Of a stretch of DNA of 32,943 nt, positions 3,006 through 24,301 are shown in pieces. Origin of the DNA: a virus. A model generated the notes under the pieces. That model searched no databases and was not told the origin of the DNA. It saw only the letters and a list, made by a program, of their open reading frames with translations. The stretch covers positions 1 through 32,943 of the IMG/VR virus record IMGVR_UViG_3300022540_000418. One strand, given 5' to 3'. A program made the position numbers and the translations under genes. Position 1 is the first letter of the stretch; each line of letters starts with the position of its first letter.

Positions 3006-3316
3006 GGCGCCTCTTTGACCTCCACGCTATAGTTTTCTGTGGTTTCCCTCGCGCCTGACTTGGTAGCGCGCACACTGACGAGGTATTCGCCCGCGTTTAT
3101 GAAGTCATTCTCCACGACGAGATATTTCCAGGTGCCTTCGGTAGCAATCACAACGTCAGCACTAGCAGACACTAGCGGGTGGCCCCAATTGCCCATTTCC
3201 CAGGCGTTGAAGGTTAGCGTATAGCCTGTCAGGTTGAATACGCTACCGTCGGCGTTGGTTATTACACCTTGCAGATAGAAGCCATAGTCGCTTCTCTGAA
3301 TAGTCAAATCAGCCAT
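3002..3316 (-). CDS. Ig-like baseplate/fibre-associated protein (BppU-N-like)
   Basis: 104 aa, all beta. The sequence DYGFYLQGVITNADGSVFNL, TGYTLTFNAWEMG, then GTWKYLVVENDFINAGEYLV and SVEVKEAP fits the immunoglobulin-like domain known from N-termini of lactococcal baseplate proteins and common as a stand-alone phage protein. The likely role is to attach or cap a fibre, since it directly follows a repeat-fibre gene (8-bp overlap) and precedes the connector. The family resemblance is from memory, not a search. Confidence 0.65.
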   Translation of the reverse strand: MADLTIQRSDYGFYLQGVITNADGSVFNLTGYTLTFNAWEMGNWGHPLVSASADVVIATEGTWKYLVVENDFINAGEYLVSVRATKSGARETTENYSVEVKEAP

Positions 3317-4199
3317 TTTGCTTCACCTTCATATTCAAAGTTCGGTCCGCTATCGCGGCCGTCAATTCCCGGTCGGGCAAGCTCAGATTGAGGGTGTAGT
3401 AAGTCATTTTCGTTATACCGATGGTTACGCACAATGCCGCCCTGGTTGTCGTCTGACTGGCAAGGACTAGGGCAATGAGGGTATTGAGGGTAAGCGCGGC
3501 CCTCGTGGCCGTTAGCGACCTTAAGACAAGCTCGATCGGCGCCGCAATCGTTAGCTCTAATGCCGCGCGGCTTTCCGTCAGGGACCTTAACTGTAACGCG
3601 GTAATGACAGCGAGGGCCAGAGCTGCCCGGGTATCGCTTAACGACCTACCTGCCAGGGTTATTTGACTGACCAGCGCTAACGCGGCCCTTGTATCGGTGA
3701 CCGCCCTCAGCGCCAGGCCGATCATCGTTTCCAGGACGACGCTGGCCCGCGTGTCGGTGACGGACCGGCACGCCAGCAGCGGCACAACTGCTATAACTAA
3801 GCCGGCTCGTGTATCGGTGAAGGTCCGCAAAACGACGGCGATTCCAGTAGCAAGACCGACCGCGGTCCTGGTATCGGTTAGGGATTTCAGTTGTAATTCG
3901 GTTGCCGCTGTAACTGAAATCGTTATGGTTACTCTTGTGTCAGTAAAGGATCGCAGCGCAACCGCAACTTCCGCCGTAAGAGCCAATGCAGCCCTTGTAT
4001 CTGTTGAAGACCTGAGAGTTAATCCTACGCTCGAATCAAGCGTTATATCTGCGCGGCTATCACTACTACTGCGTAAATCTAATGTTACTAAGACAAGCTG
4101 GCTGCCTCTTCCGAATTCTGTAAGATAGATAACACAAGCCCGCCCGAATTCAGTTATGGCTTCGGTCGCTATTCTGCCATGCTCAGTGATTTGCACCAT
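3309..4199 (-). CDS. Repeat-built fibre/adhesin protein 2 (RSxTDTRAAL repeats)
   Basis: 296 aa. Residues 1-42 carry three TE(H/F)GR motifs. Residues 43 to about 264 are ten complete repeats plus a shortened one; eight are 20 residues and two are 22. The consensus is RSxTDTRAALxLxxxIxLxL, a polar turn followed by alternating hydrophobics, as expected for beta-solenoid or beta-prism fibres. Residues 265-296 are a tail (TLNLSLPDRELTAAIADRTL) shared with the protein at 5652..7355, so the two are paralogs. No enzymatic motif. It is likely a virion-surface fibre or adhesin. The ATG at 4199 starts next to a weak AGGTGATTT site. I know no named family for this repeat. Confidence 0.75.
   Translation of the reverse strand: MVQITEHGRIATEAITEFGRACVIYLTEFGRGSQLVLVTLDLRSSSDSRADITLDSSVGLTLRSSTDTRAALALTAEVAVALRSFTDTRVTITISVTAATELQLKSLTDTRTAVGLATGIAVVLRTFTDTRAGLVIAVVPLLACRSVTDTRASVVLETMIGLALRAVTDTRAALALVSQITLAGRSLSDTRAALALAVITALQLRSLTESRAALELTIAAPIELVLRSLTATRAALTLNTLIALVLASQTTTRAALCVTIGITKMTYYTLNLSLPDRELTAAIADRTLNMKVKQNG
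3408..4073 (-). repeat. Coding tandem repeats, 60/66-bp units (protein 2)
   Basis: About eleven diverged in-frame repeats encode the RSxTDTRAAL units. In the plus-strand text they show as recurring words such as gtatcggt and gcggcccttgt every 60 or 66 bases. The DNA copies differ a lot while the protein pattern is kept, so the array is old and under selection, not a recent slippage product. Confidence 0.85.
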
Positions 4200-5651: not shown

Positions 5652-7355
5652 CTATTGCTGACTGCCCCGCATAGCCATAGTTAATTGCCTGTCATGCAGC
5701 TCCATATTGAGCGTTTGCTGCCTCATGGCTGTTGTTAAGGCTAATGCTGCTCTAGTGCTTGTCTGACAGAGCAGAGCGAGAGTGATCAAGGTATTCAACT
5801 GGATTGCTGCTCTCGTTGTCGAGGCGCTGCGACATTGTATCTCTGTAATTAGAGATATTGTCAGAATAATTGCAGCGCGTGTCGAAGTGCTAGAGCGCAT
5901 TTCCAGCGAAATAGCTGCCAGCAGAGCTAAACTTGCCCTTGTATCTGTTGAAGACCTACATTCCAAGTAGGTGATTTCAGTAACTTGTATCTCTAACGCG
6001 GCTCGCGTATCGGTTTGGCTTCTCAGAGCCAAGCTGACTAATGTATCGAGAATCAAGGCGGCTCGCGTATCAGTTGAAGACCGACACGCGATTTCTGTTA
6101 TTGCTGTTACTGTTATTGTCAGTCGTGCGGCGGTATCGGTAGAAGAACGCAGATGTAATCCAATTCCTGTCGCTAGAGTTAAATCGGCTCGCGTATCGGT
6201 TGCGGAACGTAGCTCTAATTCGGTTACTTCGGCTACCGTCAGCGTGATTGCCGCCCGGGTATCGGAAGACGAGCGAAGCTCAATAGACACACCCACGCCA
6301 AGGCTTATATCGGCTCTGGTATTAGAAACAGCCCTGCCAGCTATGGCGATTGCGACACTTATCGTTAAGCGCGCGTCAGTATCACTAGAAGAACGAAGAC
6401 GCAGAGTAATGCCAGTGTCTAGTGCCAGTCTTGCGTCAGTGTCGGTGCTAGAGCGCAGTTCAAGCTCGGTAGGTGCAGCACCGTCTCCTGTGCCATAGAG
6501 GGAGAGCCCCCAACCTGCGGCAAGAGTAAAATCTCCCGTATCTTCAGGGTCGCAGTAATCGCCGACGATGGAATAACTTCCACTGTAGCCGCTGTTATCA
6601 GCGTCTACGTTAAGGATTTTATTATTGGATTCGTCAAGCCCAATGAATTCCCCAGCGGTGATGCTAAGAGTTAACCCTGTAAATTGTTGTAATATGTCAT
6701 CATCTACTTCCCCAACTGATTCGGCGTCATGGCAAGTAAAGTTACCAGAACCATTATCCGTGAAAGTGCCTATTCGGCAATTATTTCCGTTTTGTGCGGT
6801 GTCGAACCAGGCTTCGACGGTATCAATAGTTCCCGTATCGTTAGCGGCATTGTTATAGTTAATGTGTGTGTCATATCTTAAAGCAGCATTTGCCGCTCTA
6901 TCCTCCGCCGCCAACCCAACGTCAATCGTGCCACCCTTGCCTATGTGAAGGTCAATGCCGTCGGCAACGTGAGTTATACCAATATCAAACTCTGAAAGCC
7001 TACCGAGTAGGTCTTGCAGCCTGTTCGTATTCTTGTTTTTGTCTCTAGTGTCGCCAGCTACAAAGCGGTGCCTGACCTGTCCCTCTTGGAATGGCACTTT
7101 CTTCCATTCGCCTATGAAGGGAAGGTCGTTATCCCAGCAATGCTGATGAAAGGCGTAGAAATAGCGGAGACAACGTGTAATGTCTGCTAGGATTTCAGCG
7201 TCGGAAGCACTATGTAAGGGGTGTATGAAATGAACATGGAAAGGCTTATGTCCTTGATAATGCGGCTCACGAGGCGACAGAAAGAGGTCGAGGCGTAGCT
7301 TTATTCTATCCTTGCGTATTTCGCAGCCTGACGCGTTCAGCTTGGCATAGGGCAT
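5652..7355 (-). CDS. Repeat-built fibre/adhesin protein 1 (RSxTDTRAAL repeats)
   Basis: 567 aa in three parts. Residues 1 to about 130 are a His/Arg-rich head (KPFHVHFIHPLHSASDAEIL). Residues 130-300 are a beta-rich domain, with VEAWFDTAQNGNNC and DFTLAAGWGLSLYG, resembling lectin or carbohydrate-binding folds. Residues 301 to about 544 are eleven repeats plus a short one, RSSTDTRAALxLxxxIxLxL. The last eight complete repeats strictly alternate 22 and 20 residues. The C-terminal tail (TLNMELHDRQLTMAMRGS) matches the shorter protein at 3309..4199. Ser/Thr-rich turns at each repeat could be sites for glycosylation. It is probably a host-binding fibre. Start ATG 7355. Confidence 0.75.
   Translation of the reverse strand: MPYAKLNASGCEIRKDRIKLRLDLFLSPREPHYQGHKPFHVHFIHPLHSASDAEILADITRCLRYFYAFHQHCWDNDLPFIGEWKKVPFQEGQVRHRFVAGDTRDKNKNTNRLQDLLGRLSEFDIGITHVADGIDLHIGKGGTIDVGLAAEDRAANAALRYDTHINYNNAANDTGTIDTVEAWFDTAQNGNNCRIGTFTDNGSGNFTCHDAESVGEVDDDILQQFTGLTLSITAGEFIGLDESNNKILNVDADNSGYSGSYSIVGDYCDPEDTGDFTLAAGWGLSLYGTGDGAAPTELELRSSTDTDARLALDTGITLRLRSSSDTDARLTISVAIAIAGRAVSNTRADISLGVGVSIELRSSSDTRAAITLTVAEVTELELRSATDTRADLTLATGIGLHLRSSTDTAARLTITVTAITEIACRSSTDTRAALILDTLVSLALRSQTDTRAALEIQVTEITYLECRSSTDTRASLALLAAISLEMRSSTSTRAAIILTISLITEIQCRSASTTRAAIQLNTLITLALLCQTSTRAALALTTAMRQQTLNMELHDRQLTMAMRGSQQ
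5724..6455 (-). repeat. Coding tandem repeats, 60/66-bp units (protein 1)
   Basis: Twelve units in frame. Spacing between successive RSxTDT motifs is 20, 20, 20, 22, 20, 22, 20, 22, 20, 22, 20 residues. The alternation gives a 42-residue (126-bp) super-unit, which points to growth by doubling of a two-repeat block. The same repeat type occurs 1.6 kb downstream in protein 2. Confidence 0.87.
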
Positions 7356-7390: not shown

Positions 7391-7795
7391 TTAGCCGGTG
7401 GCAAAGACAGCTATTGCAACTTCGAGGTCGCTTATTGCGACCGTTACACCGTCTGACCCTGTGGTTTTTGAAGTCTCAATGGTCGCGATATATAGCTCAT
7501 TGCCCGCAGTTGTCGCATCCCAGACTGTGAAATGCGTTATCTCCTGCGCCGAATCAATCTCTGTTCCCGCCCACTCTACCGCAGCAGTATTCTTAGAGAT
7601 TTGCTCCGTCGCAGTAGTCGAGGCAACCGCAGTTCCCATCGTAGCGGGCTTTCGGGCAATATCGGCTGTGCCGACCAGTGCTTCGTTTGCTGTGCCAGCG
7701 TTACCCGGGTCGCCCGTGTGCAGCATTAGATGTGGAGTTCCACCTTGCAGGTCCGCATCTAGCTTCGCATTAGCGTTCACATATCCCATTGCCAT
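7391..7795 (-). CDS. Putative tail-fibre / virion structural protein (HTGDPG type)
   Basis: 134 aa, low in charge and rich in Ala/Thr. The signature LHTGDPGNAGTANE, followed by IARKPATMG and THFTVWDATTAGNELYIATI, belongs to a common phage structural protein type found next to fibre genes. It is probably exposed on the virion. It starts at ATG 7795 behind AACAGGAGGTAACAA; the zinc-ribbon gene stops four bases before this start. The exact virion position is not known. Confidence 0.68.
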   Translation of the reverse strand: MAMGYVNANAKLDADLQGGTPHLMLHTGDPGNAGTANEALVGTADIARKPATMGTAVASTTATEQISKNTAAVEWAGTEIDSAQEITHFTVWDATTAGNELYIATIETSKTTGSDGVTVAISDLEVAIAVFATG

Positions 7796-7798
7796 TTG

Positions 7799-7960
7799 TT
7801 ACCTCCTGTTTGTCCAGCCGCATATCGGGCAAGACAATTCCTTATTCTTGTTTTCCTTTAATCCAGTATAACAGCATTCCGGGCATTCAGTGATGGTCGT
7901 TTCTGCCTCGGCGGCTTTTCGGTTTTCGTCTATCATGTCCTTTAGTTGCTGCCATGTCAT
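7799..7960 (-). CDS. Small zinc-ribbon protein (53 aa)
   Basis: A short ORF. It begins MTWQQLKDMIDENRKAAEAE, a helix, and then carries two Cys pairs: ECPECCY and SCPICGW, the knuckles of a zinc ribbon. Helix-plus-CxxC proteins of this size often lie downstream of capsid genes in siphophages, with unknown function. The start ATG 7960 follows AGGATGGTGAACT, and its stop is just before the AGGAGG-led start of the next gene, so the spacing supports translation. A different-frame ORF over the same bases (8084..7887) is a shadow. Confidence 0.75.
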   Translation of the reverse strand: MTWQQLKDMIDENRKAAEAETTITECPECCYTGLKENKNKELSCPICGWTNRR

Positions 7961-7990
7961 AGTTCACCATCCTATTCCGCGGCGGCTCTT

Positions 7991-8779
7991 TTAACTCTCG
8001 GTGCACGCGTCGCACTTTGGTAGTTCGTGTCCGCGGCCTTCTTTGTGCCTTTGCTGATATTCCTGGTGCTCGCTCGTCGTCCATATTTCCTCGATTGTCT
8101 GTGTATTCAGGTCCCCGAACTTTATATCACCAAACGGGTCAAAACAGCAAAGGCATACCACGCCGGTATAGAGAACTGTCATTTGGTTGATGGCCCGCGG
8201 GCATTGGGTCCACCGCCGCCGTTCGTAAGGATATTGAAGGCCCGCCCAGGATTGATACCGAATAGCCGACCCGCCCGATTCTATGAACGCGGTTATTTCA
8301 TCCTGGCTGATTTCGGGGTAGGCGACCATTGTGGCCCGATACTTTAGCCCGAGCCTGTCCATCAATTTGAAAGCCTGGACCACAGTCCAATAGTCCTTCA
8401 GCCCCATAACCTTTTCCCGCGTTTCGGGGCTCATCCCATTCAAAGAGACACTGAGCCGCAATTTGGGAATAGCCGCCAATTGGTGCACCAGGTCCGAAGT
8501 CAAGAAGCTGCCATTGGTATAGACCTCAATTTCCACACCGGGCAATCTAGCCCGCGCCAATTTCAGCCTGTCCATGAAGTCCTTATCCATGAACGGCTCT
8601 CCGGTCAACATGGGGTGAAACTGGCCCAAATTCGGCAAGCGGCTCGCTTCGTCGATTATCTTTTCGTATAAACCCTGAGCCATGAAGCCCTTCTCTGTGA
8701 ATTGGTGCTGGGGGCAAAAGACACACTTCCCGTTACAATGATTCGTCGTTTCGACCTGTAAATATAGCAGGTCCTTCAC
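7991..8779 (-). CDS. Radical SAM / SPASM domain enzyme
   Basis: 262 aa. The radical SAM cluster motif is C15-x3-C19-x2-C22 in NHCNGKCVFCPQH, with the usual GEP motif (MLTGEPFMDKDF). The C-terminus is a SPASM-type region: VVCLCCFDPFGDIKFGDLN, then the classic TIEEIW helix and C256/C259 near the end. Known family members cleave SAM at an Fe-S cluster to modify peptides or sugars. The GTG start overlaps the stop of the methyltransferase-glycosyltransferase gene (GTGA), so the two are co-translated. Finding it among virion genes is unusual; its substrate is unknown and may be a virion protein or a host glycan. Confidence 0.87.
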   Translation of the reverse strand: MKDLLYLQVETTNHCNGKCVFCPQHQFTEKGFMAQGLYEKIIDEASRLPNLGQFHPMLTGEPFMDKDFMDRLKLARARLPGVEIEVYTNGSFLTSDLVHQLAAIPKLRLSVSLNGMSPETREKVMGLKDYWTVVQAFKLMDRLGLKYRATMVAYPEISQDEITAFIESGGSAIRYQSWAGLQYPYERRRWTQCPRAINQMTVLYTGVVCLCCFDPFGDIKFGDLNTQTIEEIWTTSEHQEYQQRHKEGRGHELPKCDACTES

Positions 8780-10176
8780 CCCGGCTCACCATACGGATAG
8801 GGGTGGATTTTATCGTTGTTCTGCTGTTTAACGGTTATGAAGTGTAGGAAATGCTCAGGCCCGACCAGGCCCTTCGCTTTGTGCCCCGAAATGACGCCGG
8901 GGTCCACGAATATTTTAAAGCCCGCCGCCTGGACCTTGCGGCAAAAGTAGAAATCTTCGCCGACAAAAGTTCCAGGATTGTATTCGAACCACGGGGGCTC
9001 GATAGCGTCTAATACTCTGCGATGGACCAAAAGGCACCCCGCGCCAACGCCGTCGCACTCTATCAAGTCTTCCTTGGTCGAGGGGAGTATAACGGCTTCG
9101 CCGCCGCGCAGGTGGTCCTTATTTTTGCGGAGGAATTGCGCCAGCGGATTGACCACGGGTGAGTAGTAATGCGCATCCTTTTCCTCTTTGGCATTCCCCT
9201 GGTAGGCATACACGTAGCAATGCGGGTATGGCACGCCAGGGCTTTTGAAATAGAGGCCCGATATCACCGGTAAGTCCCAGCTTAGTAATTTCGTCAAGGT
9301 TTGCGGGGCGAAAGTCTGATCCGCGTCCATGAAGAATAGCCAGTCCTTTTCTAGCTCTCTGATGATCTGATTCCGTGCCACGTCGGCGGGCCGATTGCTG
9401 ATCTTTGTCAGCTTGAGCCCGCTAGGCTTTTCCAGGCCGATGAACGAATAGAACCATTCGTCAGGGATTTGCCCCAGGCAGGGAACGCCCACATGAACCC
9501 CGTGGCTGTCCCCACCTTTGACCAGGTCCCCGTTCGGCCTTTCTATGAGGTTCACGTCCAGCGCCATCTTCGTGAAATACTCGGAATGGTCGAAGTGCAT
9601 CGGGAATATCTCTTGCTGCCCGAAATTCGACCGATGATAGACGAACCCCTTATCCCTCAGACACCGGGCGAGCTCTTTGAGAAGCCCCGGTAGGGCGTCT
9701 TTGTGGACGTGCTCGAAGAAGTCATTGGCCACGACGATATCGATGTCCCTGACGCCTTTTAACATCGAAATGGTGTCAATTCCCAGACCGCGGTCGGCAA
9801 ACCGCATTTCCGCGAAAGCTCTCAGGCGCGGGTTTATGTCGTAATAGATAACGTGGTTGCCCGCGTAGGCCAGTTGAATACATAGCGTTCCCAGGCCCGC
9901 GCCGATCTCCAATACCCTTCGGTTTCGATAGGATAGTAGGGGTGCATTCCAAGACTGATAGAGGGGACTTTCGCAGTTCCAGGGTATCAATTCATACAGG
10001 TAGAAATCCCCCTGGTCGCGGTAGAAGCGGGCTACTTCCGTTGCCGTCTTCGGGGCCGCCTTTTCCCAGCGCTCAGCGGCTTGTGTTACGTTATACGCCC
10101 GCACGTCCTTTAGAACCTCATTGTAAGTCTGGTTCAGGAATCGCGCTAATTCCCTGACAGTATGTTCGAAGCTCAC
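8776..10176 (-). CDS. Methyltransferase-glycosyltransferase fusion
   Basis: 466 aa. Residues about 100-200 are a class I SAM methyltransferase: motif I EIGAGLGTLCIQLAYAG, the acidic end of strand 2 (YYDINPR) and motif IV VVANDFFEHV. Residues about 225-466 are a GT-A-like glycosyltransferase: NRPADVARNQII, the metal-binding DADQTF, DGVGAGCLLVHRRVLDAI and VGEDFYFCRKVQAAGFKIFV. Both sugar transfer and methylation are likely; methyl-capped glycans are a plausible product. The GTG start follows AAGGAGGGTAAAG just downstream of a large stem-loop. The stop overlaps the radical SAM start. Confidence 0.87.
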   Translation of the reverse strand: MSFEHTVRELARFLNQTYNEVLKDVRAYNVTQAAERWEKAAPKTATEVARFYRDQGDFYLYELIPWNCESPLYQSWNAPLLSYRNRRVLEIGAGLGTLCIQLAYAGNHVIYYDINPRLRAFAEMRFADRGLGIDTISMLKGVRDIDIVVANDFFEHVHKDALPGLLKELARCLRDKGFVYHRSNFGQQEIFPMHFDHSEYFTKMALDVNLIERPNGDLVKGGDSHGVHVGVPCLGQIPDEWFYSFIGLEKPSGLKLTKISNRPADVARNQIIRELEKDWLFFMDADQTFAPQTLTKLLSWDLPVISGLYFKSPGVPYPHCYVYAYQGNAKEEKDAHYYSPVVNPLAQFLRKNKDHLRGGEAVILPSTKEDLIECDGVGAGCLLVHRRVLDAIEPPWFEYNPGTFVGEDFYFCRKVQAAGFKIFVDPGVISGHKAKGLVGPEHFLHFITVKQQNNDKIHPYPYGEPG

Positions 10177-10193
10177 CTTTACCCTCCTTTTTA

Positions 10194-10233
10194 TGGGGCT
10201 AGGGGGTAGGAGGGTTTAACCCACCTAGCCCCA
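10194..10233 (-). other. Large stem-loop before the methyltransferase-glycosyltransferase gene
   Basis: A perfect 10-bp inverted repeat (TGGGGCTAGG / CCTAGCCCCA) encloses a second small hairpin (GGGT-TTA-ACCC). It lies 18 bases upstream of the GTG start, immediately before its ribosome site. No U-run follows on either strand, so it is not a classic terminator. It may control translation, protect an RNA end or mark the edge of an inserted cassette. Confidence 0.6.
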
Positions 10234-10282
10234 CTAACTCCCCGAATAACGCTGCGAATGCCTCGCTCGCAACGGTAATCGG

Positions 10283-10684
10283 CTACTGGCTGACGGCGCC
10301 GTATCGCGGGTTGAAACGCGCGTTGATAGCCGCGAACATATTGCCCGTCCCTGCTGCTGGCGTCAATTCCATTCTCAGGTAGCGATAGCCGTCGCTCATC
10401 TCGTCGGCGCTGACCTCTACCACCTCGATTTGATTCGTGGTGGCACTCGCGATAGTTTTCGTTGCCAGGAAGGTGGTCGAAAACTGCGTCGAAGTCGTGC
10501 CTTCGGCGATTACCGCGGTGACCGCACCGAGCCACTGAGTAGCCCCCGATACCGTGATAACGCCCGCGAAGTTGTGATACTTCGCCATGTCCACGGCCTG
10601 ACCATTAACGGCCTGAGCCGTTCGATAGGTCGTGGGAACGGGAATACCGTCATCTACCTTTATGTTTTCGTCAAATACGTGCAT
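10283..10684 (-). CDS. Putative head decoration / capsid-associated protein
   Basis: 133 aa, neutral and beta-rich (MHVFDENIKVDDGIPVPTTY, FAGVITVSGATQWLGAVTAV, YRYLRMELTPAAGTGNMFAA). It resembles small structural proteins encoded right after HK97-type capsid genes, which often decorate or cement the capsid. No enzymatic motif. Start ATG 10684 follows CAGGAGATTTACT. The role is inferred from composition and position. Confidence 0.65.
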   Translation of the reverse strand: MHVFDENIKVDDGIPVPTTYRTAQAVNGQAVDMAKYHNFAGVITVSGATQWLGAVTAVIAEGTTSTQFSTTFLATKTIASATTNQIEVVEVSADEMSDGYRYLRMELTPAAGTGNMFAAINARFNPRYGAVSQ

Positions 10685-10862: not shown

Positions 10863-11978
10863 TTATGACGTGGTGGACGCCAGACACACGTAAGGCGACT
10901 GCGTAGAACCACGCTTGGGCGTGAACGCCGTGTCCTGCAACGGCTGCCCGTCCACGCGCTTAACGAACCGCCAGGTTGTCTCGTCGGTGTTGAAGCGGTA
11001 TTCCACGCTGCGGTCGATCTTCAGGCCCTTGCGGTCCCCGATAACGTATTTATCGAGGTCATAGAGCCCGATATCGCCGACGCTGCCAAGGGCGGCCTGG
11101 TGCTCGGTGAAGTATAGCGGAATGCCGAATAGGCCCGTCGGGACCCGCTGCCCCGCGATCATTGCCCACGTTAGGACCGTGCTCCCCAAGTTCATCAGGT
11201 AAGGCAGAATGCCCTTATTCCCGACCCAGACCGTCGAGCGCCCATAGAGGTCGCCCTGGAACCGAGCCATGACATCCCCCAGGTCGGTCAACGCTACCTG
11301 GCTCACGGTGGCACGGAAGGGCGTTATCAGGGCCCCGCTGTTCATAATGCCTAGCGGCTGCCCTACCCCATTGCCCTGCCAGAAGGCTTCTTCCTCAAAC
11401 CAAGTGATCGAATCACCGAATAGCTTGATTAGGAGCGCTTCCAGCGCGATCGCGGCGTCCTCTAGCAACTCGTCGGACGCGAAGGTGAAGCCGATTAGCT
11501 TTTTGGCTATCAGCTTGATATTGCCGAACGTCGGCTGGCTGAGCGTCTTGGTCCCAGCTTGCTCCGTCCAGTAAGCGATGACGCCCCCGTGAACACTAGA
11601 GCTATGGGAAGTGTCCTTTACGGTCGGGTAGTTCAGCGTATCGCTGGTCATGGGCATTTTACGGGCCAGGGGCCGCACAATAGCCGTCTCCAGGGCCACT
11701 TGCTCGATACCCGCCGCCCATTGTTCGGGCACGAGGAAGCCGCCTTCCGAATCCACGTTTGAACTCAGCGCCTTCAGGCGGCCGTCGTCGGGGGCCATTC
11801 GGTTTTTGTGATGGTCATTGACAGCCCTGAGCCATTCGCCGAAACTCTTGAACTGGTTCACATCTTCGGCTGGGGGATTATCGCCCCCAGGGGGAAAGTG
11901 CCTATCCGTGAGCTTCAGCGCCTCTACGGCTTTTTCGGCGGCTTGCCTTGCTAATTCCTTGATTTCTTCTTCGCTCAT
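10863..11978 (-). CDS. Major capsid protein, HK97 fold
   Basis: 371 aa. Residues 1 to about 75 are a helical, charged scaffold-like segment (EEEIKELARQAAEKAVEAL), which the protease usually removes. The capsid body starts near GGFLVPEQWAAGIEQVALET and continues with MTSDTLNYPTVKD, a typical HK97 strand order, and AFWQGNGVGQPLGIMNSGAL. The C-terminal P-domain strand is around KYVIGDRKGLKIDRSVEYRF. It builds the icosahedral shell. It lies directly downstream of the protease, as in HK97, with a 6-base gap and an ACGGAGGTAAATCAAT ribosome site. Confidence 0.93.
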   Translation of the reverse strand: MSEEEIKELARQAAEKAVEALKLTDRHFPPGGDNPPAEDVNQFKSFGEWLRAVNDHHKNRMAPDDGRLKALSSNVDSEGGFLVPEQWAAGIEQVALETAIVRPLARKMPMTSDTLNYPTVKDTSHSSSVHGGVIAYWTEQAGTKTLSQPTFGNIKLIAKKLIGFTFASDELLEDAAIALEALLIKLFGDSITWFEEEAFWQGNGVGQPLGIMNSGALITPFRATVSQVALTDLGDVMARFQGDLYGRSTVWVGNKGILPYLMNLGSTVLTWAMIAGQRVPTGLFGIPLYFTEHQAALGSVGDIGLYDLDKYVIGDRKGLKIDRSVEYRFNTDETTWRFVKRVDGQPLQDTAFTPKRGSTQSPYVCLASTTS

Positions 11979-11984
11979 ATTGAT

Positions 11985-13682
11985 TTACCTCCGTAGTTTT
12001 CCTTTTGCCTGTTCAATCGCTGCGCTGAGAGCATTGGTGATAATGTCGCGAATTTCTTCACGCGTCAGCGCCTTCTCAGGCTCGTCGGTGTGCTCGGCCG
12101 AATCTAGGACACCCTGGGCCAGGCTTTTGATTTCCTCTAGCCGTTCCCGATTGACCCGATTCAGCACAGCGCCGATTTTCTCGGCTATATCAACAGGGAT
12201 GTCGTTCCCTGCGTCACGCATTAATTCAGCTTGTTGGAAGATGATACGAATTATATTCCAGGCCTGTTCTATAGTATGTCGGCTTAACCCTACCTTAGCT
12301 ATAGCATCAAATAGGTATGCCATTTCATCTGCTATTGCCGCCTGTGAAATCTCTCTCTCCCGGGGCAATTCCTTCTCAGGAATGCCGCCCAGGGCCTTCC
12401 AGGGTGGCTCTTTGTCAAATTCCTCATAATGCTTGGCTAGGTGGGCCTTCGCGCCGGTCTGTTCAGCCTCCGTTGCGTCTATGCCACCTCTAGCTCCCAT
12501 GAGAACCGCCCCCGCGGCGGCGACACCTGCCCAGACTACGGCGTGCTTATCGCTGGCTAAGTGATGGGGCAATTTGTAGGACCCTTTGAGTTCGGTATCG
12601 CCCTGGACGATGGTGCACATGACTTTGAGGTCGTCCACTTCAGCACTGGCTACCTCGCGGCCCGCGTTCCATTCCACATCTGTGCCCGCCTTTGGCGTGC
12701 CGTTTGGATGTGCTGATTCGTAAGAGATTGCAGCCTTGGAATCATTGCTTGAAATTGCTCTGCCAGGGCCAGGCCGGTCAACCCGCCGCATTTCCCCACC
12801 ACACTCAGGACATTTCAAGTCAACACAATGTTCCTCAGTTTCAAGGGTATGACCACAAACAATACACTCGCACGTATAAGATTGCTTGTCTGCTACGCTC
12901 GCCTCTGTCGCCACCTCAAAGGTGCCATCATAGTCCTTACAATGGGTCCGCGCCTCGGCGGCCGTCCATGTTTCCTTGTTGTAGCGATAAGCCTGGTCGG
13001 TCATCGTATCTTCATCCTCTAGGCGCCCCATGATAACCGAATACTTTTTGCCATCGTGCGTTCGCTCGCTGCGCCTGAAGCTGCCTTCCTGGAAGTCGTC
13101 AGGGTCGCGGAGCCGACACGCGTGTTCGTTGGGATAGGGACGCAATACAACCGTCGGGACGACTTCCATAAACGGCGCGATATCGCTGATAATGCCCTTC
13201 GCCTTTGCTTCGGCCAGGGCCTCGGGATTCGCCGGCACAGGGCAGCCCGAAAGCTCTAGTAGCTCTTGCTGAAGGTAACGCGTCGGCTGATGGGAAAACC
13301 AATTATCGTCTTCGTCCTCTTTGGTTTCGATCGGTTCGCTCTTAATCGGTATAAAGCCGACCGACGTGGCCCGAATGAAGCCACCCTTGTAGAGCTGATA
13401 GACGGTGTCCGCAAACTCGTATTCGTGGCGCTCGGCAAACTGGACGTGGAAGCGTAGCTGGCCGTCCTTCGCCCATACCTCTATAGCCTTCCCGACGGGC
13501 GGGTCGGTATAATTATGGGCCCACATAAATACGGGGTTCTTCTTGTAGTTGGCCAGCTTCCAGCCCTTGGCCATGATGATATCGCCCTCGCGGTCCTGGG
13601 ATTCCGTGGACCCGACGAATTCGAGGACCCGCGGCGATACCTCTTTGACTTCAAAGGGTAGTATTTTGACTATCTTTTCCAT
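11985..13682 (-). CDS. Prohead protease with extra zinc-ribbon and C-terminal domains
   Basis: 565 aa, about three times a simple HK97 protease. Residues 1 to about 165 are the protease: H56 in MWAHNYTDPP and S107 in RATSVGFIP are the expected catalytic pair, followed by ELSGCPVPANPEAL. Residues about 190-260 are an accessory module (FRRSERTHDGKKYSVIMGRL). Residues 271-294 hold a zinc ribbon (C273/C276 and C291/C294). Residues about 330-430 are another module (YKLPHHLASDKHAVVWAGVA), and the rest is helical, scaffold-like. It probably cleaves the capsid N-terminal arm and may also serve as the scaffold. Confidence 0.85.
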   Translation of the reverse strand: MEKIVKILPFEVKEVSPRVLEFVGSTESQDREGDIIMAKGWKLANYKKNPVFMWAHNYTDPPVGKAIEVWAKDGQLRFHVQFAERHEYEFADTVYQLYKGGFIRATSVGFIPIKSEPIETKEDEDDNWFSHQPTRYLQQELLELSGCPVPANPEALAEAKAKGIISDIAPFMEVVPTVVLRPYPNEHACRLRDPDDFQEGSFRRSERTHDGKKYSVIMGRLEDEDTMTDQAYRYNKETWTAAEARTHCKDYDGTFEVATEASVADKQSYTCECIVCGHTLETEEHCVDLKCPECGGEMRRVDRPGPGRAISSNDSKAAISYESAHPNGTPKAGTDVEWNAGREVASAEVDDLKVMCTIVQGDTELKGSYKLPHHLASDKHAVVWAGVAAAGAVLMGARGGIDATEAEQTGAKAHLAKHYEEFDKEPPWKALGGIPEKELPREREISQAAIADEMAYLFDAIAKVGLSRHTIEQAWNIIRIIFQQAELMRDAGNDIPVDIAEKIGAVLNRVNRERLEEIKSLAQGVLDSAEHTDEPEKALTREEIRDIITNALSAAIEQAKGKLRR

Positions 13683-13691
13683 ATAGACCTC

Positions 13692-15581
13692 CTATATTAT
13701 GGGTAGAAAGACACAGCGACATTGGGGGTGAAGCGGGATCATTCCGTGCGTCTCCTTCACCGCATATTCTCTTCCATGTAAGGGCGCGCAAATATCACAA
13801 GTGCGGCCGTCCTCAGCTGTGTAGAATTCGGCCGTTTCGACGCCCGCGGTTTCATAGCCCCGTAGATTCCCCTCTACGGACGCGGCTATCGTTTCGGTCC
13901 TGGCCACCATTTGCGCCCTGACCTTGTTAGCCTGACCGTAATATTCCACGACGCGATTGGTCAGATTCGGAATCGATTCGCCCGCCTCGAATCCTTCTAC
14001 CAGAGTGGCCCGCAATTGCTTTATCGTCGTGCCGTTTAGCAGTTTCGCCAATTCCAGCGACCGGGTTGCCAGCCATAAACGAGCCCGTTCATCGACTTGC
14101 TTACTATCTTGGTGCGGCATCTGCGGCGTAAGCAAGTCCAGGCCGTCCTGATAATGGCGCTCGAATACCCTGGTCAGGATCGGCAGCATTGCTTTGTCGA
14201 ATATGTTGCGCGCCTCCAATTCGTCGAATAGCGCGTCGTGAGGGTTGTCGCCGGCCCGCAGCCGCCTTATGACTTCCTTTTCCTGGTCGCCCCATAGCTT
14301 CTTCAATTCGCTCACAAACCACCGTTCTTCGGCTTCCGTCTTGGCCGCAAAAGCCCTCCAGAAGGCCGTTTTGCCGTCGCTGCTAAGGCTTTTCACGATC
14401 GGCCTAAGACTTCCCTTGGCAGGGACCTCGACAACCGAAAACGGAAGGAGAAAACTGCCCTCAGCTTTGACGTCTAGGCCGATCTCCTGGCGCGCTTCTT
14501 CGCGGGTGATAATACCCGCTTCGAAGTCCTTACGGTTCTGCTCGCGGTTCGTTTTGACATCTGCGGGCACAGGGTCCGCGAAGGCAAACTCGATACCATC
14601 ATCGTATAACGGGCATAGTTGCTCGTTCAGCGCTTCCCGTAGTCTTTGGAGGGCGGGCCTGATGGTATATTTGGCAAAGATATATTCGTCCGCCTCGGCC
14701 CTGGCCCGGGACCCAACTTCGCTGGCCCCTATCAGGGATTCGGGAATATGGTAAGCCGCCAGTATGAGCTTCTTTGACGCGTTTCGTAGGCCCGCGAAGT
14801 CCATATCCTTAGCGCTCATGGCGACGGTATTCGCTTTGGCGCCGCCCCAGAGGAAGCCAGGCTTATAGGCATTGCGCCAACCCTCGTGAACCTCCGTGAA
14901 TTCGTCGCGTATTCGCTGGCGTTCGTCCTTACCAGGTAATTCGGGGAATTCCAAGAATAGCCGCGGGGTCGCATCATTATAGAATAGCTTGTTTTGATAT
15001 TTGGCCGCGTGTATCTCCGAATCCAGGTCCGTCGCTATCGCCTTCGCAGCGCCGATTCCTCTATAAGGATTCGCGGGGTTCGGGTTGAATATGTGGATTA
15101 CTTCGGGAATTTCCAGCCTGACCTTCGTATTGCCGCGTTCGTATTCGTAGTGCGAAATGTATTTCTCGGCCGACGGGATTATCTTCATATAAGACGGCGG
15201 GGCCGCCCACATTTCCCCGGGGATCCCCAGGCCGTTCCTTTGCAGGACTATAAAGGCTTCCCCAACCAATTCGATGTAGGTTTCTACCAGTAACAGGAAT
15301 TGATAGCGGGTCTGGAAGGGATTCACGTGATCCCATAATTCGATTAGCGGGTGTTCCTCGATTTCCTCGTATTCACCCTTCTTGCGCTTCTCATATAAGG
15401 TCCATTCCGAAGCGGCGACCGCGTTGGCGATCAGCGAAACGGCACCGAATAACCAGCCGATCTCACCGTAGGCATTGAGATAAGCCTGGTAGTTCCAGCC
15501 TGGCGGGATAGCCAGTTCGGTAAACCCGCTACCGCCTAACCGATAGCCGAGCAGTCGCCGCAATGTTTCCTTTACAGCCAT
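13692..15581 (-). CDS. Portal protein fused to a MuF-like head morphogenesis domain
   Basis: 629 aa. Residues 1 to about 390 are an HK97-type portal: WLFGAVSLIANAVAASEWTL, NPANPYRGIGAAKAI, KKLILAAYHIPESLIG and FEAGIITREEARQEIGLD. The C-terminal ~200 residues are a Mu gpF-like domain, with ARTETIAASVEGNLRGYE, TAEDGRTCDICAPLHGREYA and the ending HPQCRCVFLPI. Elsewhere these are usually two adjacent genes. The portal forms the DNA channel at the head vertex, and MuF proteins are packaged with it. It lies 7 bases downstream of the terminase. Confidence 0.92.
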   Translation of the reverse strand: MAVKETLRRLLGYRLGGSGFTELAIPPGWNYQAYLNAYGEIGWLFGAVSLIANAVAASEWTLYEKRKKGEYEEIEEHPLIELWDHVNPFQTRYQFLLLVETYIELVGEAFIVLQRNGLGIPGEMWAAPPSYMKIIPSAEKYISHYEYERGNTKVRLEIPEVIHIFNPNPANPYRGIGAAKAIATDLDSEIHAAKYQNKLFYNDATPRLFLEFPELPGKDERQRIRDEFTEVHEGWRNAYKPGFLWGGAKANTVAMSAKDMDFAGLRNASKKLILAAYHIPESLIGASEVGSRARAEADEYIFAKYTIRPALQRLREALNEQLCPLYDDGIEFAFADPVPADVKTNREQNRKDFEAGIITREEARQEIGLDVKAEGSFLLPFSVVEVPAKGSLRPIVKSLSSDGKTAFWRAFAAKTEAEERWFVSELKKLWGDQEKEVIRRLRAGDNPHDALFDELEARNIFDKAMLPILTRVFERHYQDGLDLLTPQMPHQDSKQVDERARLWLATRSLELAKLLNGTTIKQLRATLVEGFEAGESIPNLTNRVVEYYGQANKVRAQMVARTETIAASVEGNLRGYETAGVETAEFYTAEDGRTCDICAPLHGREYAVKETHGMIPLHPQCRCVFLPII

Positions 15582-15588
15582 GAACCTC

Positions 15589-16806
15589 CTATACGTCGAA
15601 AGCGTAACCGTGGTATTCCAGCTTCCCCATTATGGCATACCGCCGCTCATCCATAAGGTGCGAAAAGGTGTGGGTCGTTTTCTCGGTCAGTTTGCCGTCC
15701 TTATCGGGTATGTATCGGTAGTTACGCTGTTCCTTAATCCCGTTCAGCGAATCCTTGGTCCAGTATTGTTTGTATTGCCTGACCTTTTGGTGCCCAAATT
15801 CCACGCTGCCAGGGCCCTTCGGCGCGGGCTTGATATTGAAGCCGTAACGCTTGATTTCTTCTATAGATTTGGGTTCGGCAGCGTCGGCCCAGATTTCAGC
15901 CTGGGCCTTTTCGACGCCAAGCTCTATCAGCCGTTGCGCTATCATATCGTTTGTCAGGCCCTTCTCGTAGATCAATTCCTGGGAATGTAGCTCGTCGTCT
16001 ATAATAACGTGTCGGGCGCAAGCCGTAACGTCGGTCGAAAAGCCAAAGTCCAGCCCGTAGAAAACGTCGCCCCGGGGCAATTCGCCTATCTGTTCAAAGT
16101 CAGGATAGACCAAGCCCTCGACCTTGCCTGTCCTACCCTCGATGTAGATATTGGCCCAGTTCGGGTCGCGCTCTCCTGCCTTGAGGATCGTGCGGATTTC
16201 CTCTGGAGTCACTACCTCTAATGCATCCCGGTATGTCGAGTGTATGTAGCCATTCTCCGGCTGCCCTATCCAATTCTCATGCGCCCAGAACTCAGCAACG
16301 GGATTCCAATCGCAGAAGGTGAATAGCCGAGTGCGTACATCGAGTCCCCGAGCTGCCTCCCACGACACGTTGTTAGCCTCATTGATAAATAGGATATCGC
16401 GCCGTGGCCCTCTTACCTTGTCTGCTTCATCCGCCCCGAAGAACTCTATCGCTCCCTTGCCGAAGGTATAAAGATGCTCAGTCTTGTTATACCGAAAGTT
16501 ATTATCCTGGGGCTCATTCAGTATAGTAAAGAAATCCCTTATTGCCCCCTTCTTCAGATGCGGCAGGGTTTCGCTCACTACCGATATCAGTAGCGGCACT
16601 TGGGTGTTCTGAGCAATCAATATGAGGATCTGCAGAATGGACCAGGTTTTGCTGGCATCAGTTCCACCCTCGTTTAGTGCCCTGCGAAATCCGCCTAGGT
16701 AGGCCTTGAGGTTATCACGATAAACCGATGTGAGAGACCAGCGTACCACCCTTGATGATTCGGAGGGTGAGCTGCTTTGTTTCGTCATCCTTGGCGGTGA
16801 TTTCAT
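15589..16806 (-). CDS. terL: Terminase large subunit
   Basis: Up to 405 aa, of the PBSX-like type. The ATPase has a Walker A-like GGTDASKT (residues about 47-54; related terminases carry SSKT) and Walker B DILFINEA (137-144). The nuclease half begins near YGLDFGFSTDVTACARHV, with an acidic pair in AEIWADAAEPKSIEEI. It cuts and pumps DNA into the prohead. The ORF overlaps the small-subunit gene by 92 bases; the true start may be later (GTG in frame near 16749, or ATG 16788), because no clean ribosome site stands before 16806. Confidence 0.92.
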   Translation of the reverse strand: MKSPPRMTKQSSSPSESSRVVRWSLTSVYRDNLKAYLGGFRRALNEGGTDASKTWSILQILILIAQNTQVPLLISVVSETLPHLKKGAIRDFFTILNEPQDNNFRYNKTEHLYTFGKGAIEFFGADEADKVRGPRRDILFINEANNVSWEAARGLDVRTRLFTFCDWNPVAEFWAHENWIGQPENGYIHSTYRDALEVVTPEEIRTILKAGERDPNWANIYIEGRTGKVEGLVYPDFEQIGELPRGDVFYGLDFGFSTDVTACARHVIIDDELHSQELIYEKGLTNDMIAQRLIELGVEKAQAEIWADAAEPKSIEEIKRYGFNIKPAPKGPGSVEFGHQKVRQYKQYWTKDSLNGIKEQRNYRYIPDKDGKLTEKTTHTFSHLMDERRYAIMGKLEYHGYAFDV

Positions 16807-22797: not shown

Positions 22798-23393
22798 TTG
22801 CCACTCCTGAATGTATAAACCCACACCCACGGATTGCTCTCCCAAGGATACTTCGGGTTGATGGAGTCCCACAGAATTTGATACCAGCCAATCCTCGCTT
22901 GACGAGATATTAGTAGTTGCTTTTCGTCTCTACCTTCAGGAATAGCACCAAGGGGATAACCTTCAGCCACACAATCCTCTGGCGTGATCTCCTGCAATCT
23001 CTCAGCCTTCACACCTTCAATGACGATAAAGTGTCGAGCAGCCCATTCGGGCATAAACATTGGATTAACTGTATCTCTTTCCCATCGCCACGAAGCCCTA
23101 CCAAATTGATCATATTTTTCATCAATAGCCATACGAGAAACACCCGTAAGGTCTGTTAGATAAGTAACATAATCACAGGGCATACTTGGGTCATTGCGTT
23201 TTCGCCTTAACCCCTCTTTGATATAGACAGTCTCGCCTACTCGGTAGCGACTATTCGGCACATCTAAAAATGCAGCATGGTTTGGCGTGCTGGGAGCTAC
23301 TAAAGGCTGTGGCTTAATCACCCTTCTTGTCTGTGTCTTTCTACCCTCAACGATAGCCTGTATCATGTCGGGCTTGAATAGTATTCCTTTCAT
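22794..23393 (-). CDS. ASCH/PUA-like phage protein
   Basis: 199 aa. MKGILFKPDMIQAIVEGRKT then QTRRVIKPQPLVAPS is the standard start of the ASCH-type (PUA-like beta barrel) phage proteins, and YRVGETVYIKEGLRR is the second conserved strand. It ends WDSINPKYPWESNPWVWVYT, the closing barrel motif. It probably binds RNA or nucleotides. ATG 23393 overlaps the DUF5131 stop as ATGA; GGGGGTGAA is upstream. Confidence 0.82.
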   Translation of the reverse strand: MKGILFKPDMIQAIVEGRKTQTRRVIKPQPLVAPSTPNHAAFLDVPNSRYRVGETVYIKEGLRRKRNDPSMPCDYVTYLTDLTGVSRMAIDEKYDQFGRASWRWERDTVNPMFMPEWAARHFIVIEGVKAERLQEITPEDCVAEGYPLGAIPEGRDEKQLLISRQARIGWYQILWDSINPKYPWESNPWVWVYTFRSGK

Positions 23394-24301
23394 TTCACCC
23401 CCTTTGGCATCTCCTGTCTCAGCCGACAATCTTTATAAAATAGACCTTCAAGTGTCCCTTTACCCGCAATTAGGGGAACAAGGTTTTCCTTCAGGAACAC
23501 CGGTATCCCTGCCTTGTCCGCAGCCTCAACTATCTCGCGCACCCACTCGATTTTAGGCTGCGCTGTCCACTTGTTGCCCCATGCCATTGTTCTAAGGTCA
23601 GGACAGTTGCCCCACTGCCGAAGCATCTGCATTTCCTGATAAGAGCCAGTGCAAGCGCCGATGATGAGCCAGTTGATGCCAGCAGATTTCATAAAAGCAC
23701 CTGTGTTTCTAATTCTCTCTAATAATGGTTCAAAACTAATATATTTTACCTTTGCTTCAATGTTCGCTAGTTCCGCAACGGCTTCAACATAAGACAGCTC
23801 AGTCGTAGCCGTAACGCCGACCCAACAGTTCTCCGGGAAGGGACTCCACTTGATAAGGTTCTGAGGCTGCTTGGTCAAGAGGTAGAAGCGGTGCTGGCGT
23901 GATAGCTCGGCCGTCAATAGTATCTGCTGAGTCCAATGCTCAGGTATTCCAATGCCGAATAAATCACCCATATCGCAAACGAATATCCCCTTACTTTGTT
24001 TGTTGTCTCTTGGTTCGTATAGCCTCTCTTCCCAAAAGCGTGGGTAGAAGGGGTCGAAAGAGGCTCTTAACTCGCCATCAAACCCACCACCGCCAGCTTC
24101 AAAGGGCAAAGGTGCGATGCTCTTATTCCCCAAATACCTCTGCTTCAGTCGCCCGTGGGCTAATTTCCAAGCGTAACAGGGAAATAGTCCACCTAAGCAT
24201 AAGCCCTCCGGAGTGCAGTTGTTGCAGCCAGACATCGGATTGGAGGTATAGCCCTGGCTGCCGTCAGGATTCTTTACCCATTCGATTCTCGTAGCGTTGA
24301 T
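23390..24301 (-). CDS. DUF5131 / Gp37-Gp68 family protein, apparent AUC start
   Basis: The family pattern runs from TRIEWVKNPDGSQGYTSNPM through SGCNNCTPEGLCLGGLFPC to CYAWKLAHGRLK, with later GVFVCDMGDLFG-like and WLIIGACTGSYQEM segments; the Cys-rich start suggests a radical SAM-type Fe-S site. A standard ATG exists only at 24235, where no ribosome site is seen and the conserved IEW...NP opening would be lost. An AAAGGAGGTAAGAA site stands before an ATC at 24301, and a TAA two codons upstream closes the frame. I therefore propose initiation on AUC, giving 303 aa. Alternatively a base is wrong or the first codon changed. Confidence 0.75.
   Translation of the reverse strand: MNATRIEWVKNPDGSQGYTSNPMSGCNNCTPEGLCLGGLFPCYAWKLAHGRLKQRYLGNKSIAPLPFEAGGGGFDGELRASFDPFYPRFWEERLYEPRDNKQSKGIFVCDMGDLFGIGIPEHWTQQILLTAELSRQHRFYLLTKQPQNLIKWSPFPENCWVGVTATTELSYVEAVAELANIEAKVKYISFEPLLERIRNTGAFMKSAGINWLIIGACTGSYQEMQMLRQWGNCPDLRTMAWGNKWTAQPKIEWVREIVEAADKAGIPVFLKENLVPLIAGKGTLEGLFYKDCRLRQEMPKGVK

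Follow-up and report, generated by a model that had tools for sequence, protein, structure and literature searches.

A methyltransferase-glycosyltransferase and radical SAM gene pair beside the capsid genes of an uncultured phage, a candidate virion-decoration cassette

The window analyzed here is the whole of IMG/VR record IMGVR_UViG_3300022540_000418 (32,943 bp). On its minus strand, within the head gene module, it carries two adjoining enzyme genes. The first (8776-10176, minus; GTG start) encodes a 466-amino-acid fusion, MT-GT, of a methyltransferase (about residues 38 to 222) with a GT-A glycosyltransferase (about residues 226 to 466). The second (7991-8779, minus; GTG start) encodes a 262-amino-acid predicted twitch radical S-adenosylmethionine (SAM) enzyme, rSAM. 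Read directly, positions 8776-8779 are GTGA, and the stop codon of MT-GT overlaps the start codon of rSAM by 4 bp. The initial annotation of this DNA had described such a fusion, coupled through this overlap to a radical SAM/SPASM enzyme, and most of that description holds. The overlap is exact at 8776-8779, both halves of the fusion have Pfam matches and appear in the model as a methyltransferase and a GT-A-like half, and the SAM barrel of the second enzyme is found both in its model and by Pfam. One part that has to be revised is the auxiliary domain, which is a twitch rather than a full seven-cysteine SPASM domain.

Domains of the two enzymes

The methyltransferase half of MT-GT matches Pfam Methyltransf_23 (2.8e-11, residues 84 to 182), and in the AlphaFold model it aligns with ChlM over about 171 residues (VIA-align Z 17.4; root mean square deviation [rmsd], 2.5 to 2.9). 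A glycine-rich SAM loop, E90-x-G92-x-G94-x-G96, is conserved among the MT-GT orthologues, and this loop together with the Rossmann fold identifies a class I SAM methyltransferase. The glycosyltransferase half matches Glycos_transf_2 (PF00535; 4.4e-5, residues 265 to 299) at barely over the gathering score, and the same family is matched by the corresponding halves of 9/9 orthologues examined. A structural check of the GT-A assignment, proposed with the initial annotation, was made with Foldseek against viral structures and returned GT-A glycosyltransferases for this half; in fold searches of the PDB with the MT-GT model, matches to the methyltransferase half filled the list. The motifs D284-x-D286 (DxD), G406-E407-D408 (GED) and H432 are invariant across 11 orthologues, which is the pattern expected of an active metal-dependent GT-A enzyme. 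With its nucleotide-sugar fold and DxD metal motif, this half is a GT-A, GT2-like glycosyltransferase. PHROG matches add to the evidence for the fusion. One relative (L008:5170-6741) has an additional methyltransferase domain between its two halves.

The rSAM protein matches Radical_SAM (PF04055; 3e-19) and SPASM (PF13186; 1.9e-12). The three cysteines of its CX3CX2C core (C15, C19 and C22) are invariant, and in the AlphaFold model (predicted local distance difference test [pLDDT], 87) the barrel begins at residue 6; the motif, the Pfam match and the partial TIM barrel place the protein in the radical SAM superfamily. SPASM domains, which hold two auxiliary clusters, have the motif CX9-15GX4C-CX2CX5CX3C-C (PMC6231123). 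A full domain of this kind was ruled out, as rSAM ends three residues past the CX2C at 256-259, leaving no second half of the motif. Four auxiliary cysteines (C193, C212, C256 and C259) are kept in full-length orthologues and align with the twitch ligand region of BtrN, and rSAM appears to be a twitch enzyme with one putative auxiliary-cluster site. BtrN is also the best fold match of the model (Z 23.6; rmsd, 2.5 over 229 residues), followed by SuiB (Z 20.8) and anSME (Z 18.9).

These fold matches bear on the substrate of the enzyme. The N-terminal recognition element (RRE) for ribosomally synthesized and posttranslationally modified peptides (RiPPs) is a feature of SkfB, CteB and SuiB (PMC6231123). 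With its barrel starting at residue 6, rSAM has neither an N-terminal domain nor an RRE, and it does not have the makeup of a RiPP maturase. A RiPP system with the 53-amino-acid protein encoded downstream as precursor was considered and rejected, since that protein is a zinc ribbon and rSAM is without an RRE. If the pair modifies the virion, the substrate of rSAM could still be a protein side chain, as it is for anSME, and the result either the attachment site or a second modification. The strong fold matches to anSME and SuiB and the head protein gene adjoining the cassette would suit such a role, but BtrN outranks SuiB/anSME by about 3 Z units, the peptide recognition domain of SkfB, CteB and SuiB is missing, and in three relatives (L006, L012 and L013) MT-GT occurs without rSAM, which is therefore unneeded there for an attachment site. 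We regard side-chain chemistry as unlikely. As the rSAM substrate, a sugar is tentatively favored over a bare peptide: the fold resembles that of BtrN, an RRE is lacking, and a glycosyltransferase and a methyltransferase are constant companions.

Linkage and recurrence of the enzyme genes

Relatives were collected by protein and profile scans of viral contigs, with loci labelled L002 and so on. MT-GT orthologues in these contigs share 46 to 74% identity, and the order of capsid gene, small head protein gene (here DEC) and MT-GT is kept in relatives; downstream of the closest DEC members, MT-GT sequence follows in 10/10 contigs found. Linkage to rSAM was counted in the 11 contigs with a complete MT-GT and sequence beyond it, and rSAM follows in eight (the window, L002, L004, L005, L007, L010, L011 and L023). 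Two small genes, one of them nucleotidyltransferase-like by eye and without a Pfam match, separate MT-GT from rSAM in L004, and two additional glycosyltransferases flank the cassette in L010. The search for the same pair beside capsid genes of other phages, which the initial annotation had suggested, was thus successful. Its question about linked gain and loss is also answered in the affirmative: MT-GT is found without rSAM in the three contigs named above, wherever a phage contig reaches far enough, rSAM of the window's clade was seen only together with MT-GT, and L094 exchanges the whole cassette. In a further relative, L009, the portal, protease, capsid and MT-GT frames are all split, most likely by sequencing errors.

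The junction of the two genes is ATGA in L002 and L005, GTGA in L011 and TAATG in L007. This overlapping or abutting arrangement, kept in diverged relatives, supports the prediction that MT-GT and rSAM are translationally coupled. It also counts against a chance neighborhood, in which two unrelated accessory genes would have landed at an insertion-tolerant site after the capsid genes. Accessory genes are drawn to capsid-adjacent sites, most cases of the pair lie in one phage clade, and rSAM is missing from three MT-GT relatives, all of which would fit coincidence. However, the combination of glycosyltransferase, methyltransferase and radical SAM genes recurs with other domain orders and other radical SAM subfamilies, and the nearest cellular rSAM proteins also directly follow a methyltransferase gene. 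Coincidence is in our judgment quite improbable.

About four other architectures unite the three functions next to structural genes; their radical SAM subfamilies differ, and 4-bp overlaps are common. L024 and L025 have a radical SAM gene followed by a fusion of a glycosyltransferase with Methyltransf_24, with a P22-type coat gene alongside in L025. In L116 to L118, a glycosyltransferase-Methyltransf_24 fusion is overlapped by the next gene, for a radical SAM enzyme (ATGA in L116), 3 to 4 kb after the capsid genes. L197 has genes for a P22-type coat, a small protein, and glycosyltransferase-like, Methyltransf_24 and radical SAM-like proteins with 4-bp overlaps, and L205 has glycosyltransferase-like, methyltransferase and radical SAM-like genes between terminase-like and portal-like genes; the Radical_SAM matches of these two loci (1.8e-4 and 1.4e-6) are under the curated cutoff, and their glycosyltransferase matches are weak. 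The cultured cyanophage DSL-LC02 (OR032571) carries an annotated glycosyltransferase gene and then a fusion of an FkbM methyltransferase with radical SAM and SPASM domains, beside collagen-like and tail-fiber genes. Relatives of MT-GT with the opposite domain order, the methyltransferase being C-terminal, lie between capsid or protease genes and head-tail genes in L014 to L016, L018 and L019; in L016, Pfam gave no confirmation of a glycosyltransferase in the N-terminal half.

In a tree of the radical SAM proteins, that of L024/L025 groups with an archaeal sequence, outside the clade (98/98) that unites the window rSAM with those of Dehalococcoidia, and at least two separate recruitments of such enzymes are therefore likely. 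Among annotated phages, the window rSAM had three weak matches only and the radical SAM-like protein of L197 had none. It is quite possible, if not yet probable, that there is a general, undescribed chemistry of virion decoration, in which glycosyltransferase-methyltransferase pairs by capsid or fiber genes gained a radical SAM enzyme independently in several phage lineages, with the outcome that the particles of these phages carry a radical-altered sugar or sugar-amino-acid linkage.

The nearest cellular rSAM proteins (41 to 44% identity) are from Dehalococcoidia/Chloroflexota metagenome-assembled genomes, and 8/294 Dehalococcoidia-class genomes have one. In the three loci read out (L168, L169 and L174), rSAM comes directly after a methyltransferase gene; these loci share a conserved chromosomal trio of a 330- to 360-amino-acid protein (with no Pfam match in L169), Methyltransf_24 and rSAM. 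A scan of genome contigs for bacterial relatives of MT-GT yielded none, and the methyltransferase half alone was found at about 30% identity in 4/294 Dehalococcoidia-class genomes. Dehalococcoidia as the host was suggested by the rSAM kinship and was not confirmed, capsid relatives there reaching 39% identity at most.

The capsid-adjacent slot and the predicted role of the cassette

The window looks like a complete, circularly assembled virus genome of about 32.9 kb, because its ends share an exact 55-bp direct terminal repeat (1-55 and 32889-32943; unique length, about 32,888 bp) and the tape-measure gene spans the two record ends. In minus-strand order, the cassette is preceded by genes for the terminase (15589-16806, minus), the portal (13692-15581, minus; named by position, PHROG-type relatives and a match in related loci), the prohead protease (11985-13682, minus), the major capsid protein (10863-11978, minus; PF05065, 1.3e-42; phrog_10) and the 133-amino-acid DEC (10283-10684, minus; PHROGs 5707 and 28483, of unknown function). 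It is followed by genes for a 53-amino-acid zinc-ribbon protein (7799-7960, minus; CPECC...CPIC) and a gp80-like head-fiber protein, "fiber I" (7391-7795, minus; PF23140, 1.3e-17; phrog_240 head protein), after which come repeat proteins and head-tail genes. The capsid protein, DEC and the head fiber are candidate substrates. The position within the virion gene module assigned by the initial annotation is borne out by PF05065 on one side and PF23140 on the other. Its placement of the cassette between a capsid-associated gene and fiber genes stands on the fiber side; on the other side, the gene at 10283-10684 is capsid associated by position alone.

The location of the cassette in the head module, and not among replication genes, also speaks against hypermodification of the phage DNA. 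Phage glycosyltransferases can glycosylate DNA (cited in PMC12619734), but no base-hydroxylating or -hydroxymethylating (TET-like) enzyme was recognized among the window proteins scanned, which represent part of the genes and many of which have no family. We consider a role in DNA modification very improbable.

The repeat proteins (5652-7355, minus, and 3309-4199, minus) are rich in Ser/Thr, with units such as LRSSTDTRAALTLxxxI. The larger has no match in Pfam or PHROG, and both are possible substrates for glycosylation. Another, different repeat protein is encoded directly after MT-GT in L013. Two more radical SAM-like genes lie elsewhere in the same 33-kb genome (21380-22192, minus, and 23390-24235, minus); one matches phrog_9298 (radical SAM domain protein) and the other DUF5131/"radical SAM mobile pair protein A."

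The zinc-ribbon gene, which the initial annotation had placed after the cassette, has weak Pfam family matches; it is a real gene, given that orthologues adjoin the cassette in L002, L005, L008 and L023. A stem-loop ahead of the enzyme pair had likewise been reported. It lies between DEC and MT-GT (10194-10233, minus), with 13-nucleotide arms (10194-10206 and 10221-10233) that are 92% complementary; such a spaced inverted repeat is expected 0.00 times in shuffled sequence, and the intergenic RNA has a folding z of -3.8. A strong hairpin between DEC and the next glycosyltransferase gene is found lineage-wide, including most loci with GT4 glycosyltransferases and L094. Because it also precedes these other genes, the hairpin is associated with the capsid-DEC block, at its end, and not with MT-GT specifically. 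An intrinsic terminator was rejected, as there is no U-tract and the terminator scan did not list it. One may guess that the hairpin sets capsid-gene expression relative to enzyme-gene expression. Its loop (ACCCUCCU), within 10177-10233 (minus), is complementary to the MT-GT Shine-Dalgarno sequence (AGGAGGGU), and complementarity of 7 to 10 nucleotides is found in most relatives; as evidence of a covarying switch, this was too weak (on average, 7.3 pairs for own and 6.6 for cross combinations).

Relatives of the capsid protein served as a control for the slot itself. All those with at least 50% identity and downstream sequence have MT-GT after DEC, except L094, which has in this place genes for a GDP-mannose 4,6-dehydratase (Pfam, 1.6e-123) and a GT4-methyltransferase fusion. 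Among phages with 38 to 43% capsid identity, L095, L100 (partial), L103 to L105 and L107 to L109 have a GT4 gene after DEC. L116 to L119 also carry GT4 after the capsid genes, with a DEC-like gene visible in L116, the one read out. A tandem pair of capsid-like proteins lies ahead of the GT4 slot in many of these distant relatives (L095 to L109 and L116 to L119). Across the wider lineage, the post-capsid slot is thus a slot for glycosyltransferase and sugar genes. Of 34 capsid relatives that lack a DEC match but extend 5 kb or more downstream, only 4 have a glycosyltransferase of the profiled families within 5 kb, a count that is descriptive and not a test, as the profiles detect these families alone and the contigs are mutually related.

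On balance, we lean toward the cassette being a virion-decoration unit that attaches a sugar, methylates it and uses radical chemistry to oxidize or rearrange it. In the scheme that we infer, whose order of reactions is likewise conjectural, the GT-A domain would act during late expression, taking a sugar from its nucleotide carrier and attaching it to an exposed residue on a head protein, be it the capsid, the 133-amino-acid protein or the head fiber. The fused methyltransferase would O-methylate the transferred sugar, and rSAM would carry a carbon of the sugar through a two-electron oxidation or a rearrangement, in the manner of BtrN with its aminocyclitol substrate, and pass the electron to its auxiliary cluster. 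The zinc-ribbon protein is possibly a small partner. The particle would end up covered in an unusual sugar, both methylated and radical-modified, that could serve in shielding, stability or adsorption. A particle target is supported by the position of the cassette and by the replacement of whole cassettes with other sugar genes in the same slot.

Alternatively, the target could be a glycan of the host envelope, altered in the infected cell, for instance as a barrier to superinfection. Phages that modify the O antigen are a classical case. Pelagimyophages combine radical SAM cassettes with glycosyltransferases in their host-recognition region, and since those glycosyltransferases are read as O-antigen modifiers, as phage glycosyltransferases often are, a host-envelope role retains some weight (PMC7029224). 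However, neither MT-GT nor rSAM has a membrane segment (top 19-residue hydropathy, 1.35), no GtrA/GtrB-like gene or flippase of a gtr-type system was recognized among the window proteins scanned, and the cassette is embedded in the head operon at a slot that other sugar cassettes also occupy, including that of mycobacteriophage Pound. We hold this to be improbable, a little more so than side-chain chemistry. The initial annotation had left the target as either a virion protein or a host envelope glycan; the slot itself, its occupation by other sugar cassettes and the likeness to mycobacteriophages make the virion the better-supported candidate.

Several observations weigh against decoration of the virion. 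The target, the sugar and the reaction of the scheme are each putative. Fold is no guide to the reaction in the SPASM/twitch subfamily, in which function can be deduced neither from fold nor from sequence clusters (PMC6231123), and the good matches to rSAM include anSME and SuiB, whose substrates are proteins or peptides. The statistics of the glycosyltransferase half are modest, its sequence matches in the PDB are weak, and the MT-GT model is of medium confidence (pLDDT, 81; predicted template modeling score [pTM], 0.67). The absence of rSAM after MT-GT in L006, L012 and L013 (3/11) indicates that the radical step is dispensable; in two of these, L006 and L013, the neighbors of MT-GT are tail or other structural genes, with the capsid gene elsewhere. 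Lastly, L098, L099 and L101 have a weak DEC match and no glycosyltransferase was detected in them.

Comparison with known systems

Phage virion glycosylation is known experimentally from few phages, mainly mycobacteriophages. Were the cassette to decorate the virion, uncultured phages would have such glycosylation far more widely, encoded at a genome position that can be predicted, and it would include oxygen-sensitive radical enzymes not linked to virus particles in the literature searched. Glycosyltransferase, methyltransferase and radical SAM genes after a capsid gene would be a simple search handle for such phages and a source of new sugar-modifying enzymes, and the prediction for the head proteins is open to mass spectrometry.

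The closest enzyme by fold is BtrN, the twitch radical SAM dehydrogenase of butirosin biosynthesis (PDB 4m7t). It resembles rSAM in size, in its partial barrel plus twitch and in the four aligned auxiliary-cluster cysteines; identity is about 21%, the likeness is one of fold only, and rSAM, unlike BtrN, sits in a phage operon with a glycosyltransferase and a methyltransferase. The Dehalococcoidia pair of Methyltransf_24 and rSAM is similar in that its rSAM is 41 to 44% identical and directly follows the methyltransferase gene, but it includes no glycosyltransferase and has no capsid genes around it. DSL-LC02 has glycosyltransferase, methyltransferase and radical SAM/SPASM domains together by structural genes, as in the window, but there the methyltransferase is of the FkbM type and fused to the radical SAM domain, the region is that of the fiber and not the head, and the glycosyltransferase was named by the depositors and has no Pfam match.

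Phage enzymes are reported to glycosylate the capsid and tail tube in Che8, Corndog and Myrna (Freeman et al. 2023, as cited in PMC12363180), and cluster O mycobacteriophages combine glycosyltransferases with an O-methyltransferase (PMC11600133, citing Freeman et al. 2023). In the window and its relatives, phage glycosyltransferase genes lie inside the capsid module, the arrangement by which virion glycosylation loci are recognized. In the cultured mycobacteriophage Pound (MW132714), the interval from the capsid gene to the head-tail adaptor gene holds a glycosyltransferase, an annotated kinase, a methyltransferase, three glycosyltransferases, a UDP-glucose dehydrogenase and a further glycosyltransferase, the first glycosyltransferase being a distant relative (22.5%) of that of the window. 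The mycobacteriophage loci are thus like the window in having phage glycosyltransferases with an O-methyltransferase, and the Pound island uses the same slot; it differs in having no annotated radical SAM gene and in encoding the methyltransferase and glycosyltransferases separately. Virion modification has been shown for Che8, Corndog and Myrna, according to the citing literature, whereas the window system is known from its genes. A full-text literature search found no described virion system of glycosyltransferase, methyltransferase and radical SAM enzyme and no radical SAM enzyme in such a locus. The statement of the initial annotation that this is not a described system therefore needs narrowing, in that islands of glycosyltransferase and methyltransferase genes by capsid genes, and virion glycosylation, are known in mycobacteriophages. 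It is the radical SAM component and its recurrence for which the search found no description.

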